DNA of 46,376 bases, from contig JAFTZU010000145.1 of the NCBI GenBank assembly GCA_017461005.1, positions 1-46,376 of the forward strand, written 5' to 3'. Shown here piece by piece: positions 8,574 to 31,008 of the stretch. The DNA is from Clostridia bacterium. GTDB lineage: Bacteria; Bacillota; Clostridia; Oscillospirales; Acutalibacteraceae. Numbering within the stretch: position 1 is the first letter of the stretch; the number at the start of each line of letters is the position of its first letter. The position numbers and the translations under genes were made by a program. The notes under the pieces were generated by a model, which made no database searches, had not been told where the DNA came from, and worked only from the letters and a program-made list of their open reading frames with translations.

Positions 8574-10622
8574 ATGAGGATCAGAGATCTACTCAAAGTG
8601 GAAGCCATCGAGCTCGGCGTAAGCGCAGCGAACAAAGAAGCTGCCATCGACAAACTCGTGTCTCTCCACGACAAAGTGGGCAATCTGGCTGACGTGGCCG
8701 GCTACAAAGCTGCCATCCTGAAACGTGAGTCCGAGAGCACCACTGCCATCGGCGAAGGCCTTGCTGTCCCGCATGCCAAGACCGCCGCTGCCAAGCATCC
8801 CGGCCTTGCCGCTATCACCATCCCGGACGGTGTTGATTATGACGCTCCCGACGGACAGCCGGCAACGCTCGCATTCATGATCGCCGCTCCGGAAGGCGCC
8901 GGCGACGCTCACTTGGAGATCCTCTCCAGACTGATGGTCATGCTGATGGATCCGGACTTCGGCGCAGCTCTTCGTGCCGCCAAGACTCCGGAGGAATTCC
9001 TTGAGATCATCAACAAGCAGGAAGACGCCAAGTATCCGGAAGAAGAACCGGCACCGAAGAAAAAGGTCGCCGCTGTTGCTGCTACCGCAGCCGCCGGTGC
9101 TGCTGCCACTGCTGCCGCAGCCGGCCCCCGCGTCGTCGCCGTTACCGCCTGCCCGACCGGTATCGCCCATACCTACATGGCAGCGGAAGCCCTCGAGAAG
9201 AAGGGCGAAGAGATGGGCATCCCGATCAAAGTCGAGACCAACGGCTCCGGCGGTGCCAAAAACGTCCTGACCGCAGAAGAGATCGCCGGTGCTGACGGCG
9301 TCATCATCGCGGCAGACAAGAATGTCGAAATGGCCCGTTTCGATGGCAAGCACCTTGTCAAAGTCCCGGTCGCCGACGGCATCCACAAAGCAGAAGAACT
9401 CATCACCAAGGCCACCAGCGGCGAAGCTCCCGTCTACAAAGCAGAAGCGGGCGCCACGACCGAAGAGGCCGCGTCTGACGACGAGAGCACCTGGAGAAAG
9501 GTCTACAAACACCTGATGAACGGTGTTTCCCACATGCTTCCCTTCGTCGTCGGCGGCGGTATCCTCATCGCCCTGTCCTTCCTGGCCGATACCATCTACT
9601 GCGCACAGAACGGCCTCGCTTACGGCTCCGACTTCGGTGGCATGACCGCTATTTCCAGCTGGTTCAACGCCATCGGTAACGCAGCCTTCGGCTTCATGCT
9701 TCCCGTTCTTGCCGGCTTCATCGCCATGTCCATCGCCGACCGTCCCGGCCTCGCTGTCGGTTTCGTCGGTGGTTACCTCGCCAAGATCGGCGCCACCTGG
9801 GCTGCTCCCGCAGGACAGGACGTCTCCGCCGGTTTCCTCGGCGCCCTTCTCGCCGGTTTCGTCGCCGGCTTCATCGTCAACTGGCTGAAGAAGGCTACGT
9901 CCAAGTTCCCGGCCTCCCTTGACGGTATCCGCCCGATGCTCATCTATCCGCTGATCGGTGCGGCGCTCATCGCCGTCGTCATGTGTACGGTCGACCCGGT
10001 CATGATCGCGATCAACAACGGCATCTCCACCTTCCTGAACTTCCTGTACAGCAAGAACCTCATCGTTCTGCTCGGTCTCCTGCTCGGCCTCATGATGGCC
10101 ACCGACATGGGCGGCCCGATCAACAAGGCTGCTTACCTCTTCGGTGTTGGCATGCTGTCCCTTGGCACGGACGCCGGTTACCTGATGATGGCCTGCGTCA
10201 TGATCGGCGGCATGGTTCCCCCGATCGCCATTGCTATGGCCTGCCAGTTCTTCCCGCAGAAGTTCACGAAACAGGAACGCTCCACCGCTGCGACCAACTA
10301 TGTCATGGGTCTCTCCTTCATCACCGAAGGTGCCATCCCGTTCGCAGCTTCTGACCCCGCGCACGTCATTCCTGCCATGATGGTCGGCTCCGGTGTCGCC
10401 GGTGCCCTCTCCGCACTCTTCAAGTGCACGCTCATGGCTCCCCACGGCGGTATCTTCGTCTTCGCCACGGTCGGCAGATGGTACTTCTACCTCATTGCCC
10501 TCGCAGCCGGTGCTCTTGCCGGTATGGCGATGCTCGGCCTCCTGAAGAAGGACATCGTCTCCAAGGAAGAGATCGAAGCGGAAAAAGCTGCCCGCAAGGC
10601 AGAAAAAGCGAAAAAGGCGTAA
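8574..10622 (+). CDS. fruA: PTS fructose transporter subunit EIIABC
   Basis: Imports fructose and phosphorylates it to fructose 1-phosphate. The domains run A-B-C. EIIA (residues 1-~145) has its phosphorylated His67 in GLAVPHAKT. An Ala-rich linker (about 160-188) follows. EIIB has Cys193 in VTACPTGIAHTYMA. EIIC (from about 310) has multiple membrane segments, starting MNGVSHMLPFVVGGGILIALSF and including FITEGAIPFAA. The tail is charged (KAEKAKKA). ATG at 8574 was chosen over a TTG at 8553 because AAAGAGGG lies 8 nt before it. Length is 682 residues. An HPr gene follows in the same operon. Confidence 0.96.
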   Translation: MRIRDLLKVEAIELGVSAANKEAAIDKLVSLHDKVGNLADVAGYKAAILKRESESTTAIGEGLAVPHAKTAAAKHPGLAAITIPDGVDYDAPDGQPATLAFMIAAPEGAGDAHLEILSRLMVMLMDPDFGAALRAAKTPEEFLEIINKQEDAKYPEEEPAPKKKVAAVAATAAAGAAATAAAAGPRVVAVTACPTGIAHTYMAAEALEKKGEEMGIPIKVETNGSGGAKNVLTAEEIAGADGVIIAADKNVEMARFDGKHLVKVPVADGIHKAEELITKATSGEAPVYKAEAGATTEEAASDDESTWRKVYKHLMNGVSHMLPFVVGGGILIALSFLADTIYCAQNGLAYGSDFGGMTAISSWFNAIGNAAFGFMLPVLAGFIAMSIADRPGLAVGFVGGYLAKIGATWAAPAGQDVSAGFLGALLAGFVAGFIVNWLKKATSKFPASLDGIRPMLIYPLIGAALIAVVMCTVDPVMIAINNGISTFLNFLYSKNLIVLLGLLLGLMMATDMGGPINKAAYLFGVGMLSLGTDAGYLMMACVMIGGMVPPIAIAMACQFFPQKFTKQERSTAATNYVMGLSFITEGAIPFAASDPAHVIPAMMVGSGVAGALSALFKCTLMAPHGGIFVFATVGRWYFYLIALAAGALAGMAMLGLLKKDIVSKEEIEAEKAARKAEKAKKA

Positions 10623-14672: not shown

Positions 14673-17099
14673 ATGATCACCAACAAACACTATCTGGCCC
14701 TCGATTACGACAAGGTCCTTGCCATCCTCGAGACCTTCGTGCAGTCGAACGACGCCAAAGAACTGGCGCAGGAACTGCAGCCGGAGACCTCGCTGAAGGC
14801 GGCGGAGCGGCTGCTCCAGGAGACGCTGGACGCGCACATGCTCCTCGCGAAGTACGGCGGACCCTCCTTTGGCGGGCTCGTCAATGTGAACAACAAGATG
14901 TACATCGCCGCAACGGGCGGTGTCCTGTCCATGGGCGAACTGCTGTCCGTGGGCTCGACCCTGCGCGCCATCCGGGGCCTGTCAGACTGGTACTCCTCCT
15001 GTGAGGGCGTGGACACGTCGCTGTCCCCGTACTTCTACTCGATGACCCCGCAGAAGTACCTCGAGGAGCGCATTTTCACCTCCATCCTGTCGGAGGACCG
15101 CATGGCGGACAACGCGTCGGCGGAGCTGAAAGACATCCGGCGGAAGCTGCGCCAGCAGGAGATGAAGATCCGCGACCAGCTCGACCGGATCATCCACTCG
15201 TCCCACTACTCGACCATCCTGCAGGATGCCATCGTCACCATGCGCAACGGCCGGTATGTCGTGCCCGTCAAGCGGGAGCACAAGGCGGACGTCGCGGGCA
15301 TCGTCCAGGACACCTCGGACTCCGGAGCCACCGTGTTCATCGAGCCCATGTCCGTCGTCGAGGCGAACAACGAGATCCGTGTCCTGCTCGGCAAGGAGCG
15401 GGAGGAGATCGAGAAGATCCTCGCGGACCTGTCGGACCAGGCCGGGGCGATCTACAACGAAACGAAACAGAGCTACGAGAGCGGCATCTACCTGGACCTG
15501 GTCTTCGCCAAGGCCCAGATGGCCTACTCCATGAAGGCCGCCGCTCCGCTCCTGAACGATACGGGCATCATCGAACTGCGAGAGGCCCGGCACCCGCTGA
15601 TCGACCCGCGGAAGGTCGTCAAGACGAGCATCCGTCTCGGCGACGACTTCGACACGCTGGTCATCACCGGCCCGAACACCGGCGGTAAGACCGTGTCCAT
15701 CAAGACCCTCGGCCTCATGTCCCTCATGGCGGCCTCCGGTATGATGCTCCCGGTGGCGGACCGCAGCAAGATGTGCATCTTCGAGTCGGTCTACGCGGAC
15801 ATCGGCGATGAACAGTCCATCGAGCAGTCCCTGTCCACGTTCTCGTCCCACATGACGAACATCGTGGACATCCTGAAGAACGCCAACGAGAAGTCCCTCG
15901 TCCTCATCGACGAGCTGGGTGCCGGCACCGACCCCGTCGAGGGCGCGGCCCTGGCTATGGCGGTCCTGGAGCGGCTGCACCTGCAGGGCGCGAAAATCGC
16001 CGCCACCACGCACTATGCCGAGCTGAAAGCTTACGCGCTGGAGACGAACCGTGTGGAGAACGCCTCCTGCGAATTCGATATCAACACCCTGTCGCCGACG
16101 TACCGGCTGCTCATCGGAGCGCCGGGCCGGTCCAACGCGTTCGCTATCTCCGAACGGCTGGGCCTGTCCTCGGACGTCGTCGACCGCGCGAAGGAACTGG
16201 TCTCGGAAGAGAACACCCGGTTCGAACGGGTCGTTGAGACCCTCGAGCAGAGCCGCGCCGCCCTCGACGAGGAGCGGGAAGAGGCCGACCGGATGACCCG
16301 GGAAGCCCGCGAGGCCCGGGACAAGGCAGAGGAGGTCAAGAACTCCGTCGAGGCCATGCGGGACGCCGAGCTCGACAAGGCGAGAGCCGAGGCCGAGAAG
16401 ATCCTCGACAAGGCCCGCCGGGAAGCGGCGTACTTCATGGACGACCTTGAAAAGCTGAAGAAAGAGCGCAAACGGGCCGCGGACCTTGCCCAGGTCTCGG
16501 CCGACGCGAAGCGGACCATCCGCAAACACGAAGACGCGCTTTATGACATCACACGGCCCATCGCCGCCGAAGAGGAAGACGATGACTACGAACTGCCCCG
16601 CCCGCTGGTGGTGGGGGACAGCGTCCTCGTCAAGGACCTCGGGCCCGCCATGGTCTCGGCTCTGCCGGACAAGCGGGGGCAGGTGGAAGTGACCGCCGGC
16701 ATCCTGAAGACCCGCGTGGACATCGGACGCATCCGCCTCGACGACCAGAAACGTGCGCAGAAGGCGCAGAATGCCGAACGCAAACAGGAGCGCCGCCGGA
16801 ACACGGCCCGTGGCAGCGGTGCCTCGAGTTCCTTCGAACGGAAGGCCAACGCGAAAGTGGAGACCTCCGTCGACCTGCGGGGCATGACCCAGGAAGAGGC
16901 CATCATGACCCTCGACCGGTTCCTCGACCTGCAGATCCGCTACGGCGTCGACTCCTTCACCGTCATCCACGGCAAGGGCACCGGCGTCCTGCGCAAAGCG
17001 GTCAAACGCTACCTCGACAACAATAAACGGGTGAAGTCCCACCGCCTCGGCGCCTACGGCGAGGGCGAAGACGGCGTCACCATCGTCAACCTGAAGTAA
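14673..17099 (+). CDS. mutS2: endonuclease MutS2
   Basis: A MutS-family protein of 808 residues that lacks the mismatch-recognition domain. In Firmicutes it acts on recombination intermediates and on collided ribosomes. An N-terminal core and lever region precede the ATPase, whose Walker A GPNTGGKT starts at residue 333 and Walker B is LVLIDELGAGTDP. A long charged coiled coil spans about 510-625, then a KOW-like segment. The C-terminal Smr nuclease domain (VDLRGMTQEEA at about 733, HGKGTGVLRKAV) completes it. nfo follows after 11 bp, so the two repair genes are probably co-transcribed. Confidence 0.96.
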   Translation: MITNKHYLALDYDKVLAILETFVQSNDAKELAQELQPETSLKAAERLLQETLDAHMLLAKYGGPSFGGLVNVNNKMYIAATGGVLSMGELLSVGSTLRAIRGLSDWYSSCEGVDTSLSPYFYSMTPQKYLEERIFTSILSEDRMADNASAELKDIRRKLRQQEMKIRDQLDRIIHSSHYSTILQDAIVTMRNGRYVVPVKREHKADVAGIVQDTSDSGATVFIEPMSVVEANNEIRVLLGKEREEIEKILADLSDQAGAIYNETKQSYESGIYLDLVFAKAQMAYSMKAAAPLLNDTGIIELREARHPLIDPRKVVKTSIRLGDDFDTLVITGPNTGGKTVSIKTLGLMSLMAASGMMLPVADRSKMCIFESVYADIGDEQSIEQSLSTFSSHMTNIVDILKNANEKSLVLIDELGAGTDPVEGAALAMAVLERLHLQGAKIAATTHYAELKAYALETNRVENASCEFDINTLSPTYRLLIGAPGRSNAFAISERLGLSSDVVDRAKELVSEENTRFERVVETLEQSRAALDEEREEADRMTREAREARDKAEEVKNSVEAMRDAELDKARAEAEKILDKARREAAYFMDDLEKLKKERKRAADLAQVSADAKRTIRKHEDALYDITRPIAAEEEDDDYELPRPLVVGDSVLVKDLGPAMVSALPDKRGQVEVTAGILKTRVDIGRIRLDDQKRAQKAQNAERKQERRRNTARGSGASSSFERKANAKVETSVDLRGMTQEEAIMTLDRFLDLQIRYGVDSFTVIHGKGTGVLRKAVKRYLDNNKRVKSHRLGAYGEGEDGVTIVNLK

Positions 17100-27050: not shown

Positions 27051-27127
27051 AATGGAGCTGTAAAGAGAAAAGACTTTACAGGCAGCCGGTACAGAGCCGG
27101 CAATCTCAGGATCGGAGGTCGAAGACA

Positions 27128-27504: not shown

Positions 27505-28878
27505 ATGGCATTTGAAGGACTGTCAGACAGACTTGAAGGTGCATTCAAGCGTCTGAAAAGCAAAGGTTCCCTGAATGAACAAGACGTACGTGAAGCCATG
27601 CGCGAAGTCCGCCTCGCCTTACTCGAAGCGGACGTCAGCTACAAAGTCGCGAAGGACTTCACTGCGAAAGTCACGGAACGGGCCATCGGCGCCCAGGTCA
27701 TGTCCAGCCTGACGCCTGCACAGATGGTCATCAAGATCGTCAACGAAGAACTCACGGAACTCATGGGCGGCACACAGACCCGCCTCGCGGAAGCACAGCA
27801 TCCGCCGACAGTCATCATGATGGTCGGTCTCCAGGGTTCCGGTAAAACCACACACTGTGCGAAGATCGCCAAGAAACTGAAGGGCGAAGGCCACCGGCCC
27901 CTGCTGGTCGCCTGCGACGTCTACCGTCCCGCCGCCATCTAGCAGTTACAGGTGGTCGGCCAGAACGCCGGTGTCCCGGTGTATGAAGCCGGACAGGGCG
28001 ACCCGGTCGAGATCGCGCAGAACGGCATCCGCCTGGCGAAAGACCAGGGGTATGACTACGTCTTTATCGACACCGCCGGTCGTCTCCACGTAGACGAACA
28101 GCTCATGCAGGAACTGCAGAACATCAAGTCTGCCGTCCACCCGCACGAGATCCTGCTGGTCGTCGACTCCATGACCGGTCAGGACGCCGTCAACGTGGCA
28201 TCCTCGTTCAACGACCAGGTCGGCATCGACGGCATCGTCCTCACCAAGCTGGACGGTGACACCCGTGGAGGTGCCGCACTTTCCGCAAGGGCCATTACCG
28301 GTAAGCCCATCAAATTCTCCGGTACCGGCGAGAAGCTCGACGACCTCGAGTACTTCCACCCGGACAGAATGGCTTCCCGGATCCTCGGCATGGGCGATAT
28401 GCTCTCGCTCATCGAACGGGCGGAACAGCAGTATTCCGACGAAGAAGCCGAAAAGATGGAGAAGAAACTCCGCAAGAACAAGTTCGACATGAACGACCTG
28501 CTCGACAACCTGCAGAAGGTCCGCAAGCTCGGTCCGCTGAAAGATGTCCTCGGGATGCTCCCGGGCGTCGGCAGCCAGCTGAAGGACGTGGACATCGACG
28601 AGCACCAGTTCGACCGCATCCAGGCCCTCATCCTCTCGATGACGCCGCAGGAGCGGGAAAAACCCGAGATCCTCGATGCCTCGCGCAAGCGCCGCATCGC
28701 CGCGGGTTCCGGCCAGAAGGTCGAAGACGTCAATCGCCTGCTTGCCCAGTACAAGCAGATGCAGAAAATGTTCAAACAGATGAACAGCAAAAAAGCCAGA
28801 AAACAGTTACAGAGACTGACAGCAAACGGGAATATGGACGGCCTCAAGGACCTCGATATCACCAAGCTCGGTATGTAA
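27505..28878 (+). CDS. ffh: signal recognition particle protein Ffh, interrupted by an in-frame TAG at codon 146
   Basis: The SRP GTPase that delivers nascent membrane proteins to FtsY. The frame runs from ATG 27505 (AAAGGAG upstream) to TAA 28878 with one internal stop, TAG at 27940-27942. Before it: N domain, G1 GLQGSGKTT (from residue 108), G2 DVYRPAAI. After it, in the same frame: QLQVVGQ, G3 DTAGRLH, VVDSMTGQDAV, G4 TKLDGDTRGGAA, and the Met-rich M domain (QYKQMQKMFKQM). The interrupted position is usually Lys in homologues, so a single base change (for example AAG to TAG) explains it. Nothing else looks decayed. Ffh is essential in most bacteria, so a sequencing error, mixed population or suppressor tRNA must be considered. 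Confidence 0.9.
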
Positions 28879-30736: not shown

Positions 30737-31008
30737 CTACATTTTGTGGATCGTGTTCAGAAGGCCACTATATACAGGTCTGACAAAAACCGGAAACTGT
30801 CGTGATAGTACAAAAGAGACCCGAAAAAACTGTGAAATCTTCACAAACTAAAAATCGAAAAAGGGTCCTTGTTTGTCCGCTCGAACGAAATATCTGAAAA
30901 GCGCCCAATTTGGCGATTTTTCTCATTGACGAGGGGTACCTCCTTGCATATAATATTCAAGAAATTTGTTAAACAACTTTTCTTTTTCAATTTGTGAGGG
31001 AATTTGCT
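30737..31008. other. intergenic region between trmD and ptsH
   Basis: AT-rich and without a gene. It holds a perfect palindrome TGTGAA-ATC-TTCACA (30831-30845), a weak hairpin CGCC/GGCG followed by TTTTT at 30902-30921 that could end the trmD transcript, and the ptsH promoter at 30926-30954. Confidence 0.6.
30926..30954 (+). promoter_or_regulatory. strong promoter of ptsH
   Basis: TTGACG, 17-bp spacer, perfect TATAAT at 30949-30954; the closest match to a consensus promoter in the window. Confidence 0.85.

Follow-up and report, generated by a model that had tools for sequence, protein, structure and literature searches.

Ffh, the signal recognition particle (SRP) protein, is essential in most bacteria. 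False nonsense codons caused by consensus error are a familiar kind of fault in draft and metagenome assemblies, and UAG-CARYYA is a leaky stop read-through motif of plant viruses. Here, we analyzed an ffh gene of a Clostridia bacterium that contains a single internal TAG. The gene lies in a stretch of 46,376 nucleotides (the window), corresponding to contig C88 of a 2.12-Mb assembly that comprises 200 contigs, with a completeness of 95.33% and a contamination of 1.38%. The features of the window considered below are the following:

27505..28878, plus strand: ffh frame (signal recognition particle protein), interrupted by one TAG; 613 bits to TIGR00959 over the full profile
27940..27942, plus strand: in-frame TAG at codon 146, where the 3 closest relatives have AAG (sequence and codon comparison)
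27943..27948, plus strand: CAG TTA behind the stop, giving TAG-CAG-TTA; the 3 nearest relatives have TTG, position 27948 being a private synonymous change
27952..28878, plus strand: mechanical open reading frame with a GTG start just past the TAG, taken from the ORF list; nothing supports a separate gene

If the TAG is translated as Lys, the frame matches the Ffh profile TIGR00959 over positions 1 to 428 of 428 with 613.7 bits (curated cut-off, 473.2), and in a search of the whole genome this match carries "1 TAG". Thus, the cut-off is passed over the whole profile, and the departure from an uninterrupted Ffh frame is the TAG at 27940 to 27942. Loci L016, L017, and L020 align to residues 1 to 457 with 99% identity, indicating that this is no chance open frame. 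The stop is codon 146 counted from the ATG at 27505 and lies right behind the motif DVYRPAAI, with no further stop up to the TAA at 28876 to 28878; the bases, the frame, and the full-length profile match thus agree with the first-pass annotation, which had described an otherwise intact gene with a TAG at this place. The in-frame GTG at 27952 would allow for a split Ffh, in which the N-terminal piece would work with a second piece, started at the GTG and carrying the remaining G domain and the M domain. However, the interruption lies within the GTPase domain, inspection by eye shows no ribosome-binding site ahead of the GTG, and the gene is split in none of the 7 other genomes of the genus, so that the probability of such an arrangement is close to negligible.

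Codon 146 was examined in 88 loci, namely, the locus under study, 7 loci of the same genus, and the best 80 of 302 relatives, and was read by motif in 86 of them (L038 and L047 failed the motif and were left out). The tally over these 86 loci, including the best 80 of 302 relatives, is AAG 54, AAA 29, CAA 2, and TAG 1, the last being that of the genome under study. The 85 rows of relatives, which correspond to approximately 79 genomes (6 of the 7 genus loci are probably duplicate records among the best 80), encode Lys in 83 cases and Gln in 2, consistent with the earlier remark that Lys is usual at this site. Conservation of the stop among relatives, as expected of programmed read-through, was observed in 0 of these 85 rows (again including the best 80 of 302, with L038 and L047 unread). 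At the level of the genus, ffh scores above the cut-off in all 8 genomes, and only the genome under study, but none of the 7 others, has a stop. The 3 nearest relatives (G001, G005, and G006) have AAG at codon 146, and hence one private A-to-T change accounts for the TAG, as anticipated by the first-pass annotation, according to which a single base change suffices.

A gap-free comparison with the same 3 relatives revealed 18 substitutions private to the ffh under study, 17 synonymous and 1 creating the stop, with 12, 21, and 7 private substitutions in G001, G005, and G006, respectively. Because 17 of the 18 changes are synonymous, a long-standing null allele appears unlikely; an old, decaying pseudogene was rejected on the same count. 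The TAG might instead be genuine and have become fixed in the strain that was sequenced, as a recent nonsense allele yielding a truncated, non-functional Ffh. The contig does read TAG, the remainder of the gene is intact, as it would be in a very recent allele, and there is no second ffh to be found in the 95%-complete assembly with TIGR00959 (E up to 0.001), a copy that the first-pass annotation had suggested looking for. The sole other match in this search reaches 211.9 bits, below the cut-off, and covers only profile positions 24 to 292; it was rejected as a second copy of ffh and is taken to be a putative FtsY. Since Ffh is essential in most bacteria, since the genome contains an SRP RNA and this FtsY-like NG-domain gene, so that the pathway looks to be in use, and since the nonsense change in PolC described below would need to be real too, we regard a recent null allele as unlikely, if still worth bearing in mind.

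The second nonsense change is an in-frame TGA in the gene for PolC, the Gram-positive type DNA polymerase III alpha, near position 9247 of locus L164 (minus strand, G000:C127), 60 codons upstream of the normal end. The 5 relatives read at this codon (G001, G002, G003, G005, and G006) have GGA (Gly). The main match to TIGR01405 carries "1 TGA" in the genome under study and is free of stops in the other 7, among which the match of G007 stops short of the site and G004 is covered by the profile match only, outside the codon-level reading. In the same search, 7 weak rows below the cut-off (6 in relatives and 1 in the genome under study) also contain stops, and most of these are probably matches overrunning gene starts. 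Over the 862 codons compared, the private changes of this PolC comprise 38 synonymous, 2 nonsynonymous (E to Q and D to E), and 1 stop.

Further breaks were sought with a frame model seeded with profile-confirmed genes, which was run over 446,376 bases (77 candidates) and extended to 735,901 bases (53 candidates), stops with an ATG within 10 codons downstream being left out of the latter scan. Earlier frame scans, one of which mixed true with shadow frames and another of which settled on antisense shadow frames, were set aside. Judged by eye, ffh and PolC are the only clear interruptions of conserved genes among the 53 candidates in these 735,901 bases, with none added by the extra 290 kb of the extended scan; the other candidate rows mostly look, again by eye, like ends or junctions of genes, regions ahead of starts, or shadow frames. 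The first-pass annotation had proposed counting in-frame TAG codons in other core genes: the 735,901-base scan did uncover a second broken core gene, PolC, although its stop is TGA. Near position 15816 of locus L159 (plus strand, G000:C53), a TGA without an early ATG stands between stretches of 369 and 251 codons and may mark either a further broken gene or the junction of two genes.

A direct comparison, limited to matches with 75% identity or more in which 8 or more of the 15 residues on each flank of the stop are identical, placed 248 genes of relatives on the DNA under study and returned 16 rows with 12 distinct stop sites. At least 14 of 15 residues are identical on both sides in 2 of the 12, ffh and PolC, the PolC row being no independent discovery, as the set of relatives (26 loci totaling 460,937 bases, some places being covered by more than one of G001, G005, and G006) was picked to include PolC loci. 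In the reverse comparison, 193 genes of the genome under study aligned on the relatives' DNA gave 3 stop sites, none of that quality. Frameshift-like splits numbered 4 on the DNA under study and 1 on that of the relatives. Such splits were seen in the window at 27113 to 27125 and 30979 to 30988, as well as near position 7137 of L198 and near position 6471 of L209, and may reflect indel errors, gene starts, or divergence.

Given the codon usage of the genome, 3.33% of random substitutions produce a nonsense codon, and 2 nonsense events over coding segments of 671 kb in total therefore imply approximately 60 substitutions, or about 9 × 10−5 per base, an estimate that has a very wide range with n = 2 and that we judge plausible for a draft metagenome consensus. 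The excess of other kinds of substitutions expected from errors is not visible in ffh and PolC, in which the private changes are nearly all synonymous; at this rate, genes of their size are expected to hold only a fraction of one error.

The decoding machinery bears on whether the UAG could be translated. A search with RF00005 (E up to 0.01) found 41 tRNAs in the genome, and ARAGORN, applied to the 36 loci covering all of them, assigned the anticodon CTA to 0 of 41 and TCA likewise to 0 of 41; the tRNAs for Phe and Ile and the Ala-TGC tRNA are absent from this set, which is hence incomplete, such that one tRNA could have escaped. RF1 (prfA) is intact (533.9 bits, no stop). PylS does not exceed the cut-off of 178 bits in any of the 8 genus genomes, the best match reaching 34.2 bits, whereas 1 of 14 control genomes does; PylS thus gives no sign of a pyrrolysine system in any of the 8. 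TAG terminates uvrC and the genes called RsuA-type and gntR in the first-pass annotation (uvrC being the one name checked by profile here), and it ends 21 of the 649 coding segments in the sample, the TAG of ffh itself probably being one of the 21. Thus, neither the loss of RF1 nor the abandonment of TAG as a terminator, either of which would signal amber reassignment, is seen, and a suppressor tRNA and PylS likewise find no support. These results bear out the earlier view that global reassignment is unlikely, and the tRNA with a CTA anticodon, which was to be searched for, is not among the 41 of the incomplete set.

Decoding of the UAG at some level, with full-length Ffh being made, could still be envisaged, as the frame downstream of the stop has acquired only synonymous private changes and UAG CAG UUA matches the leaky UAG-CARYYA type. 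Against this stand the 41 tRNAs without CTA (in a set from which one could be missing), the intact RF1, the PylS scores below the cut-off in 8 of 8 genomes, the 85 of 85 relatives' rows (including the best 80 of 302) without a stop at codon 146, and the TGA, rather than TAG, in the other broken gene, and we consider read-through or suppression very improbable. The fit to the motif would not be surprising by chance, because its CAR is the Gln codon that follows the site in the rows read and TTA occupies the next Leu codon in 10 of the 80 loci counted, including the one under study. TAG-CAG-TTA arises from 2 private changes, at 27940 and 27948, 8 bases apart. A more specific proposal, in which a genuine UAG within UAG-CAG-UUA, read through inefficiently, would determine the output of Ffh in a lineage also reading through the UGA of PolC, is more doubtful still and hardly to be expected; if true, this bacterium would have to translate through a stop codon to produce its SRP protein.

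We favor, with a probability of roughly 0.83, the explanation that the TAG is a single-base consensus fault of a fragmented draft, either a plain error or a base taken from a mixture of strains, and that codon 146 of ffh is a sense codon, for Lys, in the living organism. The TAG would have entered through the consensus of the 200-contig draft, and the pattern suggests the same imperfect-consensus origin for the TGA of PolC. Indeed, because 2 unrelated core genes carry one private change each, with different stop codons, nothing appears special to ffh or to UAG. Taken together, the break in PolC, the tRNA set, RF1, PylS, and the failure to find a second ffh make recoding less likely than an error or an allele private to the strain. 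The first-pass annotation had put sequencing or consensus error first among its explanations, and the second break, the absence of CTA from the 41 tRNAs, the intact RF1, and the PylS scores below the cut-off point in the same direction. More generally, when a single stop appears in an essential gene of an assembled genome, comparable breaks in the rest of that assembly should be taken into account. A narrow literature query requiring all terms at once returned nothing on this case, which does not imply its absence from print.

Compared with known systems, the locus shares with Ffh proteins of TIGR00959 a full-length match above the cut-off, accompanied elsewhere in the genome by an SRP RNA and a putative FtsY-like NG-domain gene, and differs from them by the one TAG at codon 146, present in none of the relatives read. 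The 6 bases behind the UAG match the plant-virus motif UAG-CARYYA, but that motif operates on eukaryotic ribosomes and in viral genes, and its context is not conserved here. The 2 stops, which are probably consensus faults, share with the false nonsense codons of draft and metagenome assemblies the character of isolated one-base nonsense changes in unrelated core genes whose frames are otherwise intact.
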